NCBI RefSeq assembly: GCF_000755245.1 | Contig: NZ_BBMP01000008.1 | Coordinates: 1 to 53,714, forward strand | Direction of reading: 5' to 3' | Source: Halococcus sediminicola | GTDB taxonomy: Archaea; Halobacteriota; Halobacteria; Halobacteriales; Halococcaceae | Length of the DNA stretch: 53,714 bases | In this document: piece after piece, positions 564 to 33,586 of the stretch | Numbering within the stretch: the stretch's first letter is position 1 | Layout of the letters: each line of letters begins with the position of its first letter | Program-made: the position numbers and the translations under genes | Notes under the pieces: model-generated | What the model saw: only the letters and a program-made list of their open reading frames with translations | What the model was told of the DNA's origin: nothing | The model's database searches: none

Positions 564-687
564 CCGACCGACAATCACAGCGCTCGATGCCCACATCGCA
601 AAGTAAGTGTGTCTCGGAACCCTTCTCTTAGAGGATGCAGCGACGGAGTTTCGCACCGACAGGGAAACAGGGGAGCGAATTACAGCC

Positions 688-1968
688 GTGCCAGAACGGG
701 AAGCCGAGCACCACGACAGTCAGCGGGTGGTCGGGGTGAGCGCGGGCACGACCGGCGTCTGGCTCGTTGGCGCGCGCGGGAACGTCGCCACGACGGCGAT
801 GATCGGCGCGCGTGCCATCGCCCGTGGCGCGGCCGACACGACGGGGATGGTCACCGAGCGCGCGCCGTGTACGGGCCTCGACCTTCCGGGAATCGACTCG
901 CTCGTCTTCGGTGGTCACGACGTCCAGGACGGCAGCGTCGTCGAGACGGCCGAGCGCCTCGCGGAGCGCAATGGTATTCCAGGCCCCACGACGCTAGATG
1001 CCGTCCGAGAGGATCTCGCCGCAATCGACGAACGCATCGAGACCGGCACGGCACGCAACTGCGGGCAGGCGGTCACGGAACTCGCCGACGGGGGCACCGA
1101 CGAATCGCTCTCGCTGCAGGCGATCGTCGGGGACATCCAGGACGATTACGACGCGTTCCGCAAGGAGAACGATCTGGAGCGAGTAGTTATCATCAACGTC
1201 GCCTCCTCCGAGCCGCTACCGGCCGATCCCGAGAAGTACGATTCCATCGAGGCCATCGAGCGCGCGCTCGACGAGGACGAGCCGCTGCCGGCGAGTTCGC
1301 TGTACGCTTACGCCGCGCTCGCCGACGGGCATCCGTTCGTGAACTTCACGCCGAACGCCGCGAACGCGCTCGGTGGACTGCGCGAGCTGGCCGAGCGCGA
1401 GGGCGTTCCGCACATGGGCAAGGACGGCAAGACGGGCGAGACGCTGATGAAGTCCGCGCTCGCGCCGATGTTCGCCGGGCGCAACCTCCGCGTGCGCTCG
1501 TGGGAGGGCCACAACATCCTCGGAAACAAAGACGGAAAAGTGCTCGAAGACGATGCGAACAAGGCTGGAAAGTTGGCGAGCAAGGGTGGCGTGCTCGATG
1601 GCATCCTCGACGAGGACCTCCACAACCGGGTCCGGATCGACTACACGCCCGCGCTCGGCGACTGGAAGACCGCATGGGACGACATCCGTTTTCGGGGATT
1701 CCTCGACACCGACATGAAACTCCAGTTCACCTGGGAAGGCTCCGATTCGGCGCTCGCCGCACCATTGATACTCGATCTCGCGCGATTGCTCGCGTTCGCC
1801 GACGAGCGGGGCGAGTCGGGATTGCAGCGCCACCTCGCCTCCTTTTTCAAAGCGCCGCTCGGCGTCGACGAACACGACCTCTCCAAACAGTTCGGGATGC
1901 TCGAAGAGTACGTCGAAGCGCACGCCGCACAGCCGAACGCGGTCGGCGCGGAGGGCGACGATGACTGA
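688..1968 (+). CDS. ino1: Inositol-3-phosphate synthase
   Basis: Converts glucose 6-phosphate to 1L-myo-inositol 3-phosphate by NAD-dependent oxidation, aldol cyclisation and reduction. The NAD-binding glycine motif TGVWLVGARGNVAT is near the N-terminus. The catalytic block (about residues 250-285 from this start) includes GKDGKTGETLMKSALAP with conserved lysines, followed by SWEGHNILGN. The length, about 426 residues, suits archaeal enzymes. The start is uncertain: GTG at 688 is used here, but GTG at 736 would put the glycine motif where short homologs begin, and the frame is open back to 607. The stop overlaps the next start by 8 bases, indicating coupled translation. Inositol phosphate could feed phospholipids or compatible solutes; the neighbouring TatD and phosphatase genes instead suggest an ebo-like role. 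Confidence 0.92.
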   Translation: MPEREAEHHDSQRVVGVSAGTTGVWLVGARGNVATTAMIGARAIARGAADTTGMVTERAPCTGLDLPGIDSLVFGGHDVQDGSVVETAERLAERNGIPGPTTLDAVREDLAAIDERIETGTARNCGQAVTELADGGTDESLSLQAIVGDIQDDYDAFRKENDLERVVIINVASSEPLPADPEKYDSIEAIERALDEDEPLPASSLYAYAALADGHPFVNFTPNAANALGGLRELAEREGVPHMGKDGKTGETLMKSALAPMFAGRNLRVRSWEGHNILGNKDGKVLEDDANKAGKLASKGGVLDGILDEDLHNRVRIDYTPALGDWKTAWDDIRFRGFLDTDMKLQFTWEGSDSALAAPLILDLARLLAFADERGESGLQRHLASFFKAPLGVDEHDLSKQFGMLEEYVEAHAAQPNAVGAEGDDD

Positions 1969-3313
1969 CGGCGACGCGGGGCGGGCGATCGTCCTCGACG
2001 TGATCGGGCTCGAACGCGAGCACGTCGAGAGGGGTCTCGCGCCGAACATCGCCGACCTCGTTGACGACGGCGCACGCGCTGACCTCCAGTCGCCGTTTCC
2101 AGCTGTGACGCTCCCCGTTCAGAGTACGCTCGCGACGGGCCAGTCGCCCGAAAACCACGGCGACGTGGCCAACGGCGAGTACGACAGGGGGAACGACACG
2201 GCGGCGCTCTGGGAGCGCGAGCGCGAGGACAGGAATCGCCTCTGGGAGAGTGCGAGCGAGGCCGGACTCACCACCGGAGTATTCTGTTTTCAGCATCTCA
2301 TCGGCACGACGGCGGACGTCGCGCTCACGCCCTCGCCCATCGAGGACGAGGACAACAACATCCTTGAGATGAACTGCTGGACGAATCCTGATGATTTCTA
2401 CGACGAACTCGAAGCCGAGTACGGCCACTTCCCGCTGCACACCTACTGGGGTCCCGGCGCGAACGAGGAGTCGACCGCGTGGATTCTCGACGCCGCCCGC
2501 GAGGCCATCGACCGCTACGATCCCGACCTCCTCTGGATCTACATCCCGTATCTCGATTACGCGGGGCTGGCTCACGGGGCGAGCAGCGACGAACTCCACG
2601 AGGCGATCGGTGTCGCCGACGAACTCGTCGGCGATTTCCTCGACTTCTTGCGCGAGGACGAGCGCTGGGGCGACACAGTAGTAAACGTCGTCAGCGAGTA
2701 CGGCTTCAACGACGTCGACACACCCGTGTTCCCGAACCGTGCGCTGCGCGAGGCGGGATTGCTCGCGGTCCAGGATGACGGCGAAGGTGGCGAGGAGATC
2801 GACCTGAAGAGTTCGGAAGCGTTCGCGCTGGTCGATCACCAGGTGGCCCACGTCTATGCCGACGAGGACGTCGTCGACGAGGCGCGCGAGGCACTCTCCG
2901 GGCTGGATGGCGTCGAGCGGGTACTCGACGAGAAAGGAAAAGAAGAGTACGGCGTCGCCCACCCGAACGCCGGCGAACTCGTCTGCGTCGCCGAGCCGTC
3001 GGGCTGGTTCCAGTATTACTGGTGGCACGACGACGCGAACGCGCCGTACTACGCCCGCGACATGGATATCCACGCGAAACCCGGCTTCGACCCCGTCGAG
3101 TTGTTCTTCGGCGACGAGGGGCTCGTCTCGCTCGATGCCTCGAAAGTCGGTGGCTCGCACGGCCGTGCCGACGTCGACGGGTTCTACGGGCTGGGCGGTC
3201 CGGCTGCCCCCGATTCGGTGCCCGACGACGTTGACGCCCGCGCGGTCGCGCCGACGCTGACCAATCTGCTCGGTGTCGACGTGGCGATGGAATTCGAGCG
3301 CGACGCGCTATAA
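1961..3313 (+). CDS. Alkaline-phosphatase-superfamily protein (nucleotide pyrophosphatase/EboF-like)
   Basis: A 450-residue cytoplasmic protein of the alkaline phosphatase fold; no signal peptide is seen. The N-terminal IVLDVIGL corresponds to the first metal-ligand strand, and SPFPAVTLPVQSTLATG carries the likely nucleophile threonine, as in nucleotide pyrophosphatase/phosphodiesterases. LDYAGLAHG matches the D-x-x-x-x-x-H ligand motif. The usual T/S-D-H-G ligand motif reads V-S-E-Y-G-F instead, so the second metal site may be altered or lost. It overlaps the inositol-3-phosphate synthase gene by 8 bases and converges on the sugar dehydrogenase gene. Likely substrate unknown; a phosphomonoester or diester of an inositol-derived precursor is inference. 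Confidence 0.8.
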   Translation: MTDGDAGRAIVLDVIGLEREHVERGLAPNIADLVDDGARADLQSPFPAVTLPVQSTLATGQSPENHGDVANGEYDRGNDTAALWEREREDRNRLWESASEAGLTTGVFCFQHLIGTTADVALTPSPIEDEDNNILEMNCWTNPDDFYDELEAEYGHFPLHTYWGPGANEESTAWILDAAREAIDRYDPDLLWIYIPYLDYAGLAHGASSDELHEAIGVADELVGDFLDFLREDERWGDTVVNVVSEYGFNDVDTPVFPNRALREAGLLAVQDDGEGGEEIDLKSSEAFALVDHQVAHVYADEDVVDEAREALSGLDGVERVLDEKGKEEYGVAHPNAGELVCVAEPSGWFQYYWWHDDANAPYYARDMDIHAKPGFDPVELFFGDEGLVSLDASKVGGSHGRADVDGFYGLGGPAAPDSVPDDVDARAVAPTLTNLLGVDVAMEFERDAL

Positions 3314-3323
3314 AAAGCGAAAT

Positions 3324-5516
3324 CTACTCTTTGCGCCCGGACAGCAGCCGGGCCGCACCGATCGTCAGCCCCGACAACGCCGCCAGAACGCCGAACCCGG
3401 GACCCGAATCGCTGCTCGTCCCGCCCGAGACACCGCTCTCGCCGGTCGTTTGCGCCGCTTCGGTCACCGTCCGTCCGGCCGTTTCCCGTGCAGTCGCCGG
3501 CTTTGTGGTAGCGGTCGATTCGCCGATGCCGGTCGTGCCGGGAGTTCCGTTCGCGGCGGCCGTGGCGTTCGTGGTGACTGTGGCATTTCCGGTGGTCGTG
3601 GCGTTCGTGGTGGCCGTGGCGTTCGCGGTCGTCGCCGAACCGTTTGGGGCGCTCGCGTCGCCGGTGGCGGTCCCGGTCCCCTGAGATCCTTTCGACGGGA
3701 CGATGCGGTGGACCGCGCCGGTCGCCTCGTTGCCCGGGTTCGCGGTCGTCAGCACGTAGAGCCGTCCCTCGTTGTCTCGGCCCAGCGCGAGGATGTAGCC
3801 GCCGACGAACCCGCTGTCGGTGTTCGCGATGGAGAGCTCCGCGACGTCCCAGAGACCCTCTTCGGCTGGCGTGGCCGCGAGCAGCGAACCCGTCGGGGTT
3901 TCGGTCTCCTGTGTCTTGCGGAAATCGCCGAAGACGTACTTTCCAGTGAGGGCCGGAATATCGTCGCGTCCGTAACTGTAGCCGCCGATGGCCGCCGACC
4001 CGACACCCTCACCTCCCTCGCTGTGTGGGTACTCGATGACCGGCGGGATGAGGCGCTCGCCGCCGCGGACGTCGGGGGGCAGTTTGCTCGGGCACTCCTC
4101 GGGCGGGTTGCGACTGCCCTCCGGCCCGGGTTTGAAACAGTGGGTTCCCTCGCGGACGTTCCAGCCGTAGTTCTTGTCCTTCTCGACGATGTCGATCTCC
4201 TCGAAGCCATTCTGGCCGACGTCCGAGGCGAACAGTTCCCCGTCGGAGAATCCCATCCGCCACGGGTTGCGAAAGCCCCACGCGAACTGCTCGTCCAACC
4301 CCTCTTTTCCCACGAGTGGGTTGTCGTCGGGAATCCCGTAGGCCTTGTCGCCGTCTCGACCGTCGACGTCGATGCGCAGGATCGATCCCAAGAGGTTCTC
4401 GGTGACGTCCTGCCCGTTGCCGCCCTCGTTGTCCTCGTACCAGTCGCTCACGTGACCGAGGTCGGTGTCGTGTGCGCCGCCGCCGTCGCCCATCGCCACG
4501 TAGAGGTAGCCGTCGTCGGGCCCGAAGACGATCGCACCGGCGTTGTGCGTGTCGTACGGCGACGGGACTTCGAGCACCGTCCGTTCCGAGTCCACGAGAC
4601 CGCTCGACCCGTCCTCGCTCGTCTCGAACTCGGCGAGGACTTCCGTGTGCGAGAACTCCTCGGGCGTGCCCTCCCGCGATGGCGCGCTGTAGCGCAGGTA
4701 GAACCTCCCGTTCTCCTGATAGTCGGGATGGAACGCCATTCCCAGCAGCCCCATCTCGCCGGTGATCTCGGTCAGTTCGTCGCTCACGTCGATGAACGGC
4801 TCCTCGTTCAGACTCCCCGACTCGTGAACGTACACTTGCCCGAGTCGGTCGACGACGAAGTATCGGCCGTTCTCGCCCGGCGGCACGCCGAAATCGAGCG
4901 GTGCGGTGAGCGTTCCCTCCGTGAGCGTCTCGATGCGTACCGTGGGTCCGTCGCCGAAGTACGACGAGGACCCGCCCTCCCCATCGTCGCTTTCGGTCGT
5001 GGTCGCCGTCTGTGTCTCCTCGCCGAACGAGATCGCGCCGTGCATCGAAGCGCTGTGTGGCTCGCAGACGTACTCGGCCATCGCCTCTTTGGCAGTGAAC
5101 TCGACGGTCTGGGTCGCGCCCTGCTCGCTCATCACCTCGGTGCGCTCCAGTACCTCGCCATCGCCGTCGAGCAGTGCGAAGTTGTGGCCCTGGCCGTCGA
5201 TGTTCTTCCAGACGACCCGATAGTCGGTGCCGGCGTCGAGGCGGAGGGTCGGGTTGCTCTCGCCGGCTATCGAGTCGGGTTTCCGACCCTGCCAGCCGGC
5301 GATTTCGCCACCGAGGCGGATCGTTTCGGGGTCGGACTGTGCACCGGCGAGACCGACTGCGCCGACGAACGCACCGGTCGCGGCGCTCGCACGGAGGAAT
5401 CGTCTGCGGGTCGTTGCGTGCCGGTCTGTCGGTGAGTTCGTGGTCATTGCGGTTGTGGGGTCGTCGGTCGTACGCTGCTTGTCGTCTCGCTGCGACGGCG
5501 AGTCATGATGGCTCAT
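3324..5516 (-). CDS. Secreted PQQ-dependent sugar dehydrogenase with N-terminal blue-copper domain (copy 1)
   Basis: A 730-residue exported protein. A Tat signal with TTRRRFL sits near residue 37. Residues about 75-170 form a cupredoxin-like domain with a full type-1 copper set: H in GHNFALLD, then C, H and M in CEPHSASM. The glucose/sorbosone dehydrogenase beta-propeller follows (GLLGMAFHPDY with the likely catalytic histidine, RIDVDGRDGDKAYGIP, WGFRNPWRM, NYGWNVREG). A Thr/Ala/Asn-rich linker leads to a PGF-CTERM tail (GPGFGVLAALSGL, then R-K-E), expected to be processed by archaeosortase A and lipid-anchored. The ATG at 5516 overlaps the upstream stop as ATGA, which supports this start; an internal ATG at 5447 would give a more usual Tat n-region. 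Probable role: periplasmic-side aldose oxidation with electrons passed to copper. Confidence 0.9.
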   Translation of the reverse strand: MSHHDSPSQRDDKQRTTDDPTTAMTTNSPTDRHATTRRRFLRASAATGAFVGAVGLAGAQSDPETIRLGGEIAGWQGRKPDSIAGESNPTLRLDAGTDYRVVWKNIDGQGHNFALLDGDGEVLERTEVMSEQGATQTVEFTAKEAMAEYVCEPHSASMHGAISFGEETQTATTTESDDGEGGSSSYFGDGPTVRIETLTEGTLTAPLDFGVPPGENGRYFVVDRLGQVYVHESGSLNEEPFIDVSDELTEITGEMGLLGMAFHPDYQENGRFYLRYSAPSREGTPEEFSHTEVLAEFETSEDGSSGLVDSERTVLEVPSPYDTHNAGAIVFGPDDGYLYVAMGDGGGAHDTDLGHVSDWYEDNEGGNGQDVTENLLGSILRIDVDGRDGDKAYGIPDDNPLVGKEGLDEQFAWGFRNPWRMGFSDGELFASDVGQNGFEEIDIVEKDKNYGWNVREGTHCFKPGPEGSRNPPEECPSKLPPDVRGGERLIPPVIEYPHSEGGEGVGSAAIGGYSYGRDDIPALTGKYVFGDFRKTQETETPTGSLLAATPAEEGLWDVAELSIANTDSGFVGGYILALGRDNEGRLYVLTTANPGNEATGAVHRIVPSKGSQGTGTATGDASAPNGSATTANATATTNATTTGNATVTTNATAAANGTPGTTGIGESTATTKPATARETAGRTVTEAAQTTGESGVSGGTSSDSGPGFGVLAALSGLTIGAARLLSGRKE

Positions 5517-7552
5517 TGCTCCTCGCCACCCAACAGGCGGGCAGCACCGAGGGCAAGTCCGGCAAGCCCGGCGAGAATCCCGAACCCGGGACCGTCGCCG
5601 CTCACGATGCCGCCGCTCTCACCACTGCGCGCCGTGCCGGTGCTGTTGGTCGTCTCGCTCGCCGTTTCGGTCGCCGTCCGCGTCGCGGGCGGCGTCGATG
5701 TCGGTTCGGGCGTCGCGGTCGCCGTCGGCGGTCGGGCTGGCGTCTCGGTGCTCGCGGTCTCGCGTGCCTCGGCCTCGGGTGGCCGCAGGCGATGGACCGC
5801 GCCGGTCTCGCCCTTGACGCCGAGGTTGTCGGTCGTCAGCGCGTAGAGTTCGCCGTCGTTGTCGCGGGCGACACAGAGGAGGTAGGCACCGAGTTCCCCG
5901 TTCTCACCGTTCGCGATCGAAACCTCCTCGACCGACCACGAATCACCTTCGACGGGCGTCGCGGCGAACAGCGAACCGCGCGGTTTGCCGTCCTTGCTGT
6001 AGTCGCCGAAGACGTACTTCCCCTGGAGATCGGGGATCGTCGCGTTCTCGTAGATGTAGCCGCCGATGACGGCGACGCCGACGCCCTTCGTCTCGTAGGT
6101 GTGTGGATACTGGATGACGGGGTCGATGAGCGGTTCGCCGCCGCGCACGTTCGCCGGCGTGTTGGTGGGACACTGGGAACGGTAGGGGTCTGCGCCCTTG
6201 GTGGCGACGAAACACTGCCCGCCCTCGCGAACGTTCCAGCCGTAGTTGCCGCCCTTCCTGACGACATCGATCTCCTCGTACCGGCGCTGGCCGACGTCGG
6301 CGGCGATCAGCGTCTCGCCCGAGAAACCGATGCGCCACGGGTTGCGAAAGCCCCATGCGTAGTGTTCGTCGAGACCCGCCTTCCCCACGAGCGGGTTGTC
6401 CTCGGGGATCCCGTAGGCCTTGTCGCCGTCTCGACCGTCGACGTCGATGCGCAGGATCGACCCCATCAGGTTCTCCTCGATGTCCTGGCCGTTGCCGCCG
6501 AGGTTCGCGCCGTACCAGTCGTTTGGCTGTTTCGAGGATTTGAGCGCGCCGCCGCCGTTGCCGATGCCGATATAGAGGTAGTCGTCGGGACCGAAGACGA
6601 TCGCGCCGCCGTTGTGTGTGTAGTACGGCGAGGGGATTTCGAGCACCGTCCGTTCGGTGTCGGGCAGCGCTTTCGTACCCTCCTCGTTGATCTCGAACTC
6701 CGAGATGACCTGCGTATGGGTGAAGTTCTCGGGCGTTCCGGGGCGCGATTTGGCGCTGTAGTGGACGTAGAATTTACTGTTTTCCTGAAAATTCGGATGG
6801 AAGGCCAGCCCGAGCAGGCCGCGCTCGTCGATGGTCTTGATCTCGGGGAGGTTGTCGAAGTCGATGAGCTGATCGCGCACATCGAGGAACACGTCGCCGC
6901 CGCTGCCGTCGGCTCCGTACCGACGGATGACGCCGATCTGGTCGATGATGAAAAACTCCCCGCGCTCGCCGGGCGGGACTTCGAGACCGAGCGGGGCGGT
7001 GAGATCGCCGTCGACGACGGTGTCGGTTCTGATGGACGGTCCTGTGGGGAAGAATCCTTTCGGCTCGTCGGACTCGTCCTCGGTCGTCGTCTCGGTCTTC
7101 GCGCCGCCGTTCGAGAAGGTGATGTCGCCGCGCATCGAGTTGAGGTGGGCCTGACAGACGTACTCGTCCATCGCCTCGGTCGCGGTGAATTCGAGGGTCT
7201 GGGTTTCACCTTCGTTCGACATGTACTCGGTGCGCTGGAGGACGGCGTCCTCGCCGTCGAGCAGCGCGACGTTGTGCTGTGCGCCGTCGATGTTCTTCCA
7301 CGTCAGTCGGTAGGTCGTGCCGATTTCGAGTTCGAGCGTTGGGTTGATGGTGCCCTGGATCCCTGACGGTTCGCGCCCGACCCAGCCGGTCGTCTCGCCG
7401 CCGAGACTGATCTCCTGTGGCTGGGATTGGGCCTGTACACCGGTGAAGCTGCCGACGCCAGCGAGACCGGTCACGCCAGCGGCGGCGGTGGCGGCGAGAA
7501 AGCGCCGGCGCGAGGGGGCAGCGGGGTCGGTGTCGTGTATTCCATTCGTCAT
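5513..7552 (-). CDS. Secreted PQQ-dependent sugar dehydrogenase with N-terminal blue-copper domain (copy 2)
   Basis: A 679-residue paralog of the downstream gene with the same order of parts: Tat signal (SRRRFLAATAAAG at about 14-26), cupredoxin-like domain with ligands H (QHNVALLD), C, H and M (CQAHLNSM), GSDH propeller (RGLLGLAFHPNF, RIDVDGRDGDKAYGIP, NYGWNVREG), a Thr/Pro-rich linker and the tail GPGFGILAGLAGLALGAARL. It is the promoter-proximal gene of a two-gene operon; its TGA overlaps the next ATG. An AT-rich site around 7628-7640 is a possible promoter. Residue identity with copy 1 is high around the active site but low in the linker, so the pair is an old duplication. Substrate specificity cannot be read from sequence. 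Confidence 0.9.
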   Translation of the reverse strand: MTNGIHDTDPAAPSRRRFLAATAAAGVTGLAGVGSFTGVQAQSQPQEISLGGETTGWVGREPSGIQGTINPTLELEIGTTYRLTWKNIDGAQHNVALLDGEDAVLQRTEYMSNEGETQTLEFTATEAMDEYVCQAHLNSMRGDITFSNGGAKTETTTEDESDEPKGFFPTGPSIRTDTVVDGDLTAPLGLEVPPGERGEFFIIDQIGVIRRYGADGSGGDVFLDVRDQLIDFDNLPEIKTIDERGLLGLAFHPNFQENSKFYVHYSAKSRPGTPENFTHTQVISEFEINEEGTKALPDTERTVLEIPSPYYTHNGGAIVFGPDDYLYIGIGNGGGALKSSKQPNDWYGANLGGNGQDIEENLMGSILRIDVDGRDGDKAYGIPEDNPLVGKAGLDEHYAWGFRNPWRIGFSGETLIAADVGQRRYEEIDVVRKGGNYGWNVREGGQCFVATKGADPYRSQCPTNTPANVRGGEPLIDPVIQYPHTYETKGVGVAVIGGYIYENATIPDLQGKYVFGDYSKDGKPRGSLFAATPVEGDSWSVEEVSIANGENGELGAYLLCVARDNDGELYALTTDNLGVKGETGAVHRLRPPEAEARETASTETPARPPTATATPEPTSTPPATRTATETASETTNSTGTARSGESGGIVSGDGPGFGILAGLAGLALGAARLLGGEEQ

Positions 7553-30923: not shown

Positions 30924-30947
30924 TGCTCGCCGCCGAAGTGGGTAGAA

Positions 30948-31553
30948 ATGAGTTCGTCAGGTGCCGAACAGCCGACCGACACGCGCGAGGAGATCATGGA
31001 AGCGACCTATCGCGCGCTCTGCAAGCACGGCTACGCCAACCTGACGATGCAGGCCATCGCCGACGAGTTCGAGAAGACCAAGGCCGTCTTGCACTACCAC
31101 TACGACACGAAAGACCAACTGCTCGCGGCCTTCCTCGAACACCTCCTCGATCGGTTCACGGGTCGGCTCGACGTCGACGACGACGATCCGGACGCACGCC
31201 TCGACGCGCTCATCGACGAACTCCTCCTCGGTCTCGGCGATGGAAGCGAGGAGAACCGCGAGTTCCACACGGCGTTGCTCGAACTGCGCGCACAGGCTCC
31301 GCACAATGCCGCCTTCCGCGAACAGCTCACGGCGAACCACGACCTCCTCCGGGAGCTTCTCACGACCGTCATCGACGATGGCATCGAGCAGGACGTCTTC
31401 CACGAGGTCGACGCCGAGCGGATGGCGGTGCTGATTCTGGCGACGATGCTCGGCGGGCGCGTCCACCACATCACCCTCGACCGCGAGGAGGCGGCCCTCG
31501 ACGTGCGCGACGCCCTCGAAGCCGAAGTCCTCACAAATCTCCGAAAGGACTGA
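30948..31553 (+). CDS. TetR-family transcriptional regulator
   Basis: A 201-residue regulator. The N-terminal HTH is TREEIMEATYRALCKHGYAN, LTMQAIADEFEKTKAVLHYH, YDTKDQLLAAFLEHLL; the rest is an acidic all-helical ligand-binding domain. No efflux pump is adjacent: the downstream gene on the other strand is the third copper-PQQ dehydrogenase, 11 bases away and convergent. ATG at 30948 fits the TATA position. Confidence 0.9.
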   Translation: MSSSGAEQPTDTREEIMEATYRALCKHGYANLTMQAIADEFEKTKAVLHYHYDTKDQLLAAFLEHLLDRFTGRLDVDDDDPDARLDALIDELLLGLGDGSEENREFHTALLELRAQAPHNAAFREQLTANHDLLRELLTTVIDDGIEQDVFHEVDAERMAVLILATMLGGRVHHITLDREEAALDVRDALEAEVLTNLRKD

Positions 31554-31564
31554 AATTCCGGCTC

Positions 31565-33586
31565 TCAGCGCCGGAGACGGCGCGCCGCCAGCCCACCGAT
31601 ACCGGCGAGCGCGGCGAGCACGCCAAAGCCCGCCCCGTCGCCACTCGTTTCGGTTCCGCCCGTTTCGCTCGATGCTGCGGTCCCGTTTGCGCCACCCGAT
31701 TCGTTCGCGGTGGCTTCCGGCGCGGTCGCCGCGCCGCTCGTCGTCGTTTCGCCCGTGGCAGTCGTCCCGGTCGCGTCATCGTTCGCTGTGGCCGCTTCGG
31801 TCCGTGGCCCGGTCATCGCCGTGGCCTCGGTGGCGGTCGCGTTCGTTGTCCCGGCGGTTGCCGTTCCCGTTGTCCCCGTGGCGGTGATGCGGTTCACCGA
31901 CCCGCCGAGGTCGCCGGCGGAGGTCAGGGCGTACAGTTCGCCGTCGGCGTCGCGGGCGATGGCGATGAGGTAGCCCTCGACCACACCGCCCTCCGCGCCC
32001 TCAACCTGTAACTGCTCGAACTCCCACAGTCCCTTCCTGGTGGGGGTGGCCGCGAACAGCGATGCGCGCGGTTCGCCCTCTTTGCTGTAGTCGCCGAAGA
32101 CGAACTTCCCGTCGAGGGCGTCGATCGAGCCGTCGTAGAGATAGCCGCCGATGACCGAGATGCCGATGGTCTCGCCGTCGCGGGCGTGGGGATACTCGAC
32201 GACCGGCTCTCTGAGCGGTTCGCCGCCGCGCACGTCCGTCGGGGTTCGACTCGGACAGTTCTTCGGCATGTCGCTCAGGCTCTCGGTCCCGTAACAATGG
32301 GTGCCCTCGCGGACGTTCCAGCCGTAGTTGCCGCCCTTCACCACGCGGTCGATTTCCTCGTAGCGGTTCTGGCCGACGTCGGCGACGTAGAGTTCCCCGT
32401 CGGAGAATCCCATCCGCCACGGATTGCGAAAGCCCCACGCGTAGTGTTCGTCCAACCCCTCCTTCCCTACCAGGGGATTGTCGTCGGGGATGCCGTAGGC
32501 CTTGTCGCCGTCGCGGCTATCGACGTCGATGCGCAGGATCGATCCCAAGAGGTTCTCGGTGACGTCCTGCCCGTTGCCGCCACGATTGCGCTCGTACCAG
32601 TCGTCGGCGTGGCCCGCCCCTGCATCCCGTGGTCCGCCGCCGTCGCCGTAGGAGGCGTAGAGATACCCATCCGGCCCGAACGCGACCGCGCCGCCGTTGT
32701 GGACCTTCCGGGGTTCGTCTACTTCGAGCAAGATCCGCTCGGAGTCGGGCCGTGCGCTCGTTCCGTCCGGGGTCGCCTCGAACTCGGCGAGAATCTCGGT
32801 GTGTGAGAACTCGTCGGGGGCGTCGTCGGCGAGCGGGGCGCTGTAGCGCACGTAGAACCTGCGATTTTTGGCGAAGTTCGGATGGGGCGCGAGACCGAGC
32901 AGGCCGCGCTCGCCGGTGAGTTCGGCGAGGCGGTCGCGTACGTCGAGGAACGGTTCCTCGCGGAGTTCCGTTCCCTCGTTGAGATAGGCGACGCCGGGGA
33001 GGTCGACCACGACTCGTCGGTTCTCACCCGGAAGGAGTGCCATATCCGTCGGCACTTCGAATCCGCCCACGACCCGTTCGAGACCGATCGTCGGGCCGGT
33101 CGGCACGGCGCTCTCGGATGAGTTGGTCGTCGTCGCGCTCGCGGACCCATCCGACCCGAAGCGCACGCTTCCGCGCATCGAGGAACGGTGTGGCTCGCAG
33201 ATGTACTCGGCCATTGCCTCGCGCGCGGTGAATTCGAGGGTTTGGGTCGCCCCCTGCTCGCTCATCACCTCGGTGCGCTCGACGACCGCACCGTTCCCGT
33301 CGACCAGCGCGAAGTTGTGGCCCATCCCGTCGAGGTTCGTCCACGTGATGCGATAGTCGACGCCGGTTTCGAGATCGAGCGTCGGGTTCTCCTCGCCGGC
33401 AATGGACTCCGGCGCGCGGCCCTGCCAGCCGGCGATCTTCCCGCCGAGTTCGATGGTGCGGGTCTCCTGTGCGCGCCCGCGTCCGGCGGTGGCAACGCCC
33501 GCGAGCGCGCCGGCCGCCGTCAGCGAGAGAAAGCGCCGCCGAGTGGCCCGACTCCGTTCGTTCCGTGTGTGCTGTATCGAGTTCAC
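31565..33586 (-). CDS. Secreted PQQ-dependent sugar dehydrogenase with N-terminal blue-copper domain (copy 3)
   Basis: About 673 residues, same plan as the pair at 3324-7552: Tat signal (ATRRRFLSLTAAG), cupredoxin-like domain with H (GHNFALVD), C, H, M (CEPHRSSM), GSDH propeller (RGLLGLAPHPNF, RIDVDSRDGDKAYGIP, NYGWNVREGTHC) and a Thr/Ala-rich linker. The C-terminal tail reads GAGFGVLAALAGIGG then R-R-L-R-R: Ala replaces the Pro of the PGF motif. The GTG at 33586 is chosen because it leaves an 18-residue n-region before RRRFL; the frame is open to 33754. It stands alone, far from the tandem pair, and marks the end of the GC-rich core segment. Confidence 0.88.
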   Translation of the reverse strand: MNSIQHTRNERSRATRRRFLSLTAAGALAGVATAGRGRAQETRTIELGGKIAGWQGRAPESIAGEENPTLDLETGVDYRITWTNLDGMGHNFALVDGNGAVVERTEVMSEQGATQTLEFTAREAMAEYICEPHRSSMRGSVRFGSDGSASATTTNSSESAVPTGPTIGLERVVGGFEVPTDMALLPGENRRVVVDLPGVAYLNEGTELREEPFLDVRDRLAELTGERGLLGLAPHPNFAKNRRFYVRYSAPLADDAPDEFSHTEILAEFEATPDGTSARPDSERILLEVDEPRKVHNGGAVAFGPDGYLYASYGDGGGPRDAGAGHADDWYERNRGGNGQDVTENLLGSILRIDVDSRDGDKAYGIPDDNPLVGKEGLDEHYAWGFRNPWRMGFSDGELYVADVGQNRYEEIDRVVKGGNYGWNVREGTHCYGTESLSDMPKNCPSRTPTDVRGGEPLREPVVEYPHARDGETIGISVIGGYLYDGSIDALDGKFVFGDYSKEGEPRASLFAATPTRKGLWEFEQLQVEGAEGGVVEGYLIAIARDADGELYALTSAGDLGGSVNRITATGTTGTATAGTTNATATEATAMTGPRTEAATANDDATGTTATGETTTSGAATAPEATANESGGANGTAASSETGGTETSGDGAGFGVLAALAGIGGLAARRLRR

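Follow-up and report, generated by a model that had tools for sequence, protein, structure and literature searches.

Among the nearest known counterparts of the proteins analysed here are the six-bladed propellers of sGDH (1CQ1/1C9U), YliI (2G8S) and PaeASD (3A9G), with which they have in common a catalytic His, an Arg-Asn pair and a calcium-loop Gly (Gly247 of sGDH). They differ from sGDH and the aldose sugar dehydrogenases (ASDs) by an altered carboxylate clamp, altered NPQ and EHGP motifs and the addition of a copper domain. In sGDH, His144 is responsible for base catalysis, Arg228 and Asn229 contact the quinone, and Lys377 and the C-terminal arginines contact the PQQ carboxylates (PMC6881810, PMC6881789). 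A PQQ-type propeller on a tethered one-electron carrier is known from the secreted pyranose dehydrogenase of Coprinopsis cinerea (CcPDH), where an AA12 domain is joined to an AA8 cytochrome b. As in our fusions, some canonical PQQ residues are missing from CcPDH. However, its carrier is heme b instead of copper, the protein is fungal, and AA12 retains one C-terminal arginine and has its own histidines for PQQ. Fungal CcSDH/AA12 is a strong PQQ binder although several canonical residues are absent from it (PMC4133262), so that loss of some of them is compatible with PQQ use. In an engineered ASD-cytochrome b562 fusion, the heme is reduced by glucose (PMC12011955). The closest precedent for a tethered cupredoxin is the copper nitrite reductase of Hyphomicrobium (2DV6), which like the fusions carries a type-1 copper domain on a redox enzyme; the copper at its N-terminus is about 24 Å away from the core, and the part this copper plays in electron transfer is debated (PMC7201279). 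NirK-plastocyanin fusions exist in haloarchaea (PMC11237513). The catalytic part of the tethered nitrite reductases is a copper enzyme that receives electrons, whereas the propeller of our fusions would give them. Halocyanin is a haloarchaeal one-electron carrier (PMC8305020). Like plastocyanin and amicyanin, it has the same H, C, H, M ligand set and cupredoxin fold as the fusion copper domain, but these three proteins are free and the fusion domain is tethered.

The stretch of DNA analysed (the window, 53,714 nucleotides) is one whole 53.7-kb contig of the 3.76-Mb haloarchaeal genome of Halococcus sediminicola. An initial annotation had proposed that positions 3324-7552 encode two tandem PQQ sugar dehydrogenases carrying their own type-1 copper acceptor. 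Two fusion genes that overlap by ATGA are indeed present there:

5513-7552, minus strand: P0001, upstream fusion gene, 679 aa (Tat signal, cupredoxin, GSDH propeller, PGF-type C-terminus)
3324-5516, minus strand: P0002, downstream fusion gene, 730 aa, same architecture as P0001, alternative in-frame ATG at 5447
5513-5516, minus strand: ATGA stop/start overlap of P0001 and P0002, also in H. morrhuae and H. thailandensis
7427-7513, minus strand: Tat signal region of P0001 (SRRRFL), TIGR01409 at cut-off
5337-5411, minus strand: Tat signal region of P0002 (TRRRFL), from the sequence motif
7109-7420, minus strand: cupredoxin of P0001, ligands H93 (7274-7276), C133 (7154-7156), H136 (7145-7147) and M140 (7133-7135)
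5019-5333, minus strand: cupredoxin of P0002, ligands H111 (5184-5186), C151 (5064-5066), H154 (5055-5057) and M158 (5043-5045)
5777-7042, minus strand: GSDH six-bladed propeller of P0001; H313, R403 and N404 correspond to sGDH His144, Arg228 and Asn229
3687-4955, minus strand: GSDH propeller of P0002, from Pfam and the residue alignment
5516-5593, minus strand: PGF-type C-terminal tail of P0001, from the motif; archaeosortase A in genome
3327-3416, minus strand: PGF-type C-terminal tail of P0002, TIGR04126 (PGF_CTERM) 15.2 bits, cut-off 24.5

The closest named relatives of the pair are found in Halococcus morrhuae and H. thailandensis. The overlap is kept in both, and makes translational coupling of the two genes plausible. 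In P0002, a second in-frame ATG lies 69 bases inside the first, with the same 69 bases in the two relatives; the exact start is thus uncertain and coupling is only plausible. Equal amounts of the two proteins, which had been deduced from the overlap, are an assumption. An artefactual or chance origin of the pair is ruled out by the synteny and by the conservation of the copper ligands across species.

In both proteins the Copper-bind family (PF00127) scores above its gathering score in a Pfam search. None of the 46 fusions compared, which come from Halococcus and other haloarchaeal genera and include 38 distinct cupredoxin domains, departs from the H/C/H/M ligand set; such conservation is far beyond chance, and the ligand loop always reads C-x2-H-x3-M-x-G. 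This loop is intermediate between those of amicyanin (x2) and plastocyanin (x4). In a profile of 15 domains, the fusion ligands align with the copper ligands of both proteins. The isolated domain is modelled with a pLDDT of 87 as a cupredoxin fold, whose best match is the N-terminal copper domain of Hyphomicrobium nitrite reductase (2dv6; Z 11.0, rmsd 2.4, 92 aligned), followed by auracyanin and then azurin. The ligand alignment and the predicted fold together make a convincing case for a predicted type-1 copper site in the cupredoxin half. The four residues were expected to cluster, and both the alignment to solved copper proteins and the fold search are consistent with this.

The export signals that had been assigned to each protein are also recognisable. 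Both carry the RRRFL Tat motif, with P0001 alone passing the TIGR01409 cut-off. The PGF-CTERM anchor is a tentative assignment: the motif is present, preceded by a Ser/Thr-rich stretch that separates it from the GSDH domain in P0001 and P0002, and archaeosortase A (ArtA) has a strong match in the genome, but the TIGR04126 model stays below cut-off in P0002 and gave no reported match in P0001. All the Halococcus fusions end in [PA]GFG. The PGF tail is found mainly in the Halococcus group; acidic or Ser/Thr/Asn-rich tails close many of the other fusions.

The catalytic half of each protein belongs, as annotated, to the GSDH family (PF07995; 104.7 and 103.7 bits in P0001 and P0002 against a gathering score of 25, E about 1e-29). 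The two-domain model of P0001 has a pLDDT of 84 and a low-confidence interdomain linker. Its propeller matches Hedgehog-interacting protein (HHIP; Z 37.5, rmsd 2.8, 346 aligned), aldose sugar dehydrogenases (Z about 36) and sGDH (Z about 31). When solved structures are ranked by sequence, HHIP comes first and sGDH next; HHIP is thus the nearest solved propeller by sequence and is tied with the dehydrogenases by fold. HHIP binds Hedgehog and is not an enzyme. It has no copper domain and no Arg-Asn pair, His-Asp being aligned there, whereas the fusions keep R403 and N404.

The cofactor site was compared by aligning 41 fusions to sGDH (sequence verified) and YliI, with sGDH numbering. The equivalents of His144, Arg228, Asn229 and Gly247 are kept in all 41. 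The PQQ carboxylate clamp formed by Lys377, Arg406 and Arg408 is gone from the window proteins, these positions being S519, Y557 and L559 in P0001. Lys377 is absent from every fusion compared, and the Arg406 position is occupied by Phe, Tyr or Ser. At position 408, 18 fusions keep Arg, and the remaining 23, among them those of the window, have Leu or Ile. Gln231 is replaced by Trp, Phe or Tyr, Gln246 mostly by Val or Ala, and Pro248 by Gln; the substrate residues Gln76 and Gln168 of sGDH are replaced as well. New residues are invariant in the clade, namely His279, His342 and Trp346 (P0001 numbering). Classical haloarchaeal ASDs of other genomes retain GHRNPQ, mostly EHGP, and both arginines. 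By its sequence, the fusion site resembles a quinone-binding site in which the clamp has been remodelled, and PQQ is a possible occupant. The PQQ dependence put forward initially is thus supported in part, by the quinone-proximal residues; the lost clamp of the window proteins, the presence of HHIP among the nearest structures and the missing pqqC speak against it.

The initial annotation had asked whether the genome encodes PQQ synthesis. No match to pqqC was found in the H. sediminicola genome (95.5% complete), nor any above cut-off among 293 haloarchaeal genomes, while the identical search found the gene on a Rahnella plasmid used as positive control (E 1e-117). pqqE was discarded as a marker, as its model gives sub-cut-off matches in 14 of 14 control genomes and is uninformative. 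Some prokaryotes take up external PQQ (PMC4133262), so that the lack of synthesis genes does not exclude its use. Many haloarchaea without detectable pqqC have GSDH proteins of the classical ASD type in which the set of PQQ residues is complete (loci L126-L140), and this suggests PQQ scavenging within the haloarchaea.

Further copies, overlooked in the initial annotation, are found in the same genome: a fourth fusion on another contig, and a third one in the window:

31565-33586, minus strand: third cupredoxin-GSDH fusion, open frame to 33754, likely GTG start near 33586

A TetR-like regulator gene is convergent with this third gene and adjoins it (window 30938-33586), and H. thailandensis and H. 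morrhuae have the same arrangement (L017 7999-8610; L025 7954-8676). A third contig of the genome encodes a GSDH protein without a copper domain. In a separate cluster on contig C1, two more frames join the cupredoxin module to GSDH. One (L011 3462-7889) has 1476 residues, with 3-keto-disaccharide hydrolase and malectin domains, and carries the module close to its C-terminus; the other (L012 11575-14514) has 980 residues, with ThuA, and carries the module as an insertion in its GSDH region. Both encode giant secreted proteins, that of L011 with a dockerin-type domain in addition. The module is thus joined to GSDH propellers in three arrangements in one genome (N-terminal, inside and C-terminal), and this recurrence suggests that nearness to the propeller is under selection. 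By our count, 58 of 293 haloarchaeal genomes, about one in five, have a match that covers both domains (E about 1e-84 or better), and the fusion is present in every one of the 10 genomes sampled from the same genus, often in three to five copies. When 113 propellers are placed on a quick tree, those with the copper label cluster strongly, but the label needs about five changes. These may be gains or losses, and a single fusion event is uncertain; one row (L022) was counted there as lacking the cupredoxin, although the domain sits just upstream, outside the frame used. This fusion copy, on a plasmid of Haladaptatus halobius (L022 6079-7788), is spread over more than one reading frame and is perhaps a pseudogene. 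Public databases name such proteins 'PQQ-dependent sugar dehydrogenase' or 'plastocyanin'. No description of a cupredoxin-GSDH fusion was found in the open-licence literature, a scope that leaves out most subscription journals.

We consider that the fusions are best explained as oxidoreductases, quinoprotein-like and exported, in which a tethered copper domain accepts single electrons and supplies the halocyanin pool; to this reading we give slightly better than even chances. It is based on domain order, copper ligands, propeller fold, quinone-proximal residues and export signals, as read from sequence and predicted fold; from these we infer the cofactor identity, the substrate, the interdomain electron transfer and the downstream acceptor. 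The protein would be exported by the Tat route and then anchored at the cell surface. Its GSDH propeller would oxidise a sugar, or a compound resembling one, by means of a quinone-type cofactor, for which externally acquired PQQ is the first candidate. The tethered type-1 copper domain would accept electrons singly from this cofactor and deliver them to the halocyanin pool, from which they would reach a terminal oxidase. Halocyanin-like proteins are encoded in the H. sediminicola genome. The 3-keto-disaccharide hydrolase and ThuA domains joined to the module and GSDH point to sugar chemistry and favour an oxidoreductase, as do the quinone-facing residues that the fusions keep, in contrast to HHIP and its lost Arg-Asn pair. 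The distance of about 24 Å between copper and core in the closest tethered-cupredoxin precedent counts against it, and so do the loss of the clamp residues in the window proteins and the lack of pqqC in the genome. The last two observations would also suit a propeller holding no redox cofactor, an HHIP-like module that binds surface glycans or some other ligand or acts as a scaffold for them, next to a cupredoxin acting as an independent electron carrier or copper binder. The rank of HHIP by sequence and its tie with the dehydrogenases by fold agree with such a module. However, the fusions never vary in the His, Arg and Asn that face the quinone or in the calcium-loop Gly, HHIP has lost the Arg-Asn pair, and CcSDH/AA12 binds PQQ strongly without several canonical residues (PMC4133262); we therefore regard a propeller devoid of redox function as unlikely.

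Two other rivals share the oxidoreductase reading and differ from it in cofactor or electron path, so that the confidences given to all these explanations overlap. Both domains may be active with another quinone or redox cofactor in the remodelled pocket. The lost clamp, the new invariant His279, His342 and Trp346, and the absence of pqqC above cut-off from the 293 haloarchaea would be in keeping with a cofactor other than PQQ, but no candidate for it is at hand, some fusions retain Arg at position 408, and the complete PQQ set of GSDH proteins in other haloarchaea makes PQQ use without synthesis already likely in the group. The probability of another cofactor is low. The same holds for a quinone-type dehydrogenase whose copper is not the direct acceptor, the cupredoxin being instead a docking or recruiting domain or exchanging electrons with other molecules. 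The distance of about 24 Å and the debated role of the tethered copper in Hyphomicrobium nitrite reductase (PMC7201279) would fit an indirect role, and the low-confidence linker of the model leaves the domain geometry open. Yet the module is found N-terminal to, inside and C-terminal to GSDH propellers, which suggests that proximity has been selected.

More tentatively, the fusions may form a haloarchaeal copper-quinoprotein class: sugar dehydrogenases that are exported, contain their own type-1 copper acceptor and have a remodelled cofactor site (a new hold on PQQ or another quinone), in hosts without PQQ synthesis. If active, they would be a natural case of dehydrogenases that release electrons through copper, a counterpart of the heme-tethered fungal enzyme, and would show how haloarchaea could link surface sugar oxidation to respiration through copper halocyanin. 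They would test how far GSDH propellers can alter their cofactor site; the database names imply PQQ without evidence for the cofactor in the fusion clade. Salt-stable fusions could also serve in mediator-free sugar electrodes.

Two genes on the opposite strand border the pair:

607-1968, plus strand: myo-inositol-1-phosphate synthase, neighbour of the pair
1961-3313, plus strand: PF01663 phosphodiesterase, EboF-like, abutting the pair

The order purB, purH/formyltransferase fusion, tandem pair, phosphodiesterase, inositol-phosphate synthase is common to H. morrhuae and H. thailandensis. In relatives it continues beyond the synthase with TatD, an AP_endonuc_2 TIM barrel, UbiA and a second TIM barrel. 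The bacterial ebo cluster (PMC5133447) is similar to this neighbourhood, but contains the cyclase EboD at the place taken here by inositol-phosphate synthase. Halorussus ruber and one further genus likewise have a fusion gene in or beside an ebo-like cluster, but most fusion loci lie elsewhere, and the neighbourhood is no more than a lead on the substrate. Among the commonest shared neighbours, taken from nine loci with shared synteny and partly annotated neighbours, no halocyanin or oxidase was recognised. In the ebo-like cluster (window 607-3313; L142 2022-8488; L021 424-9634; L158 5-10485) both TIM barrels are xylose-isomerase-like; in this window the cluster is truncated by the contig end. 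Finally, a GSDH gene of the same clade without a copper domain is found in Salinimicrobium (Bacteroidota), near ebo-type genes for a phosphodiesterase, UbiA and TatD (L072 7472-12870).
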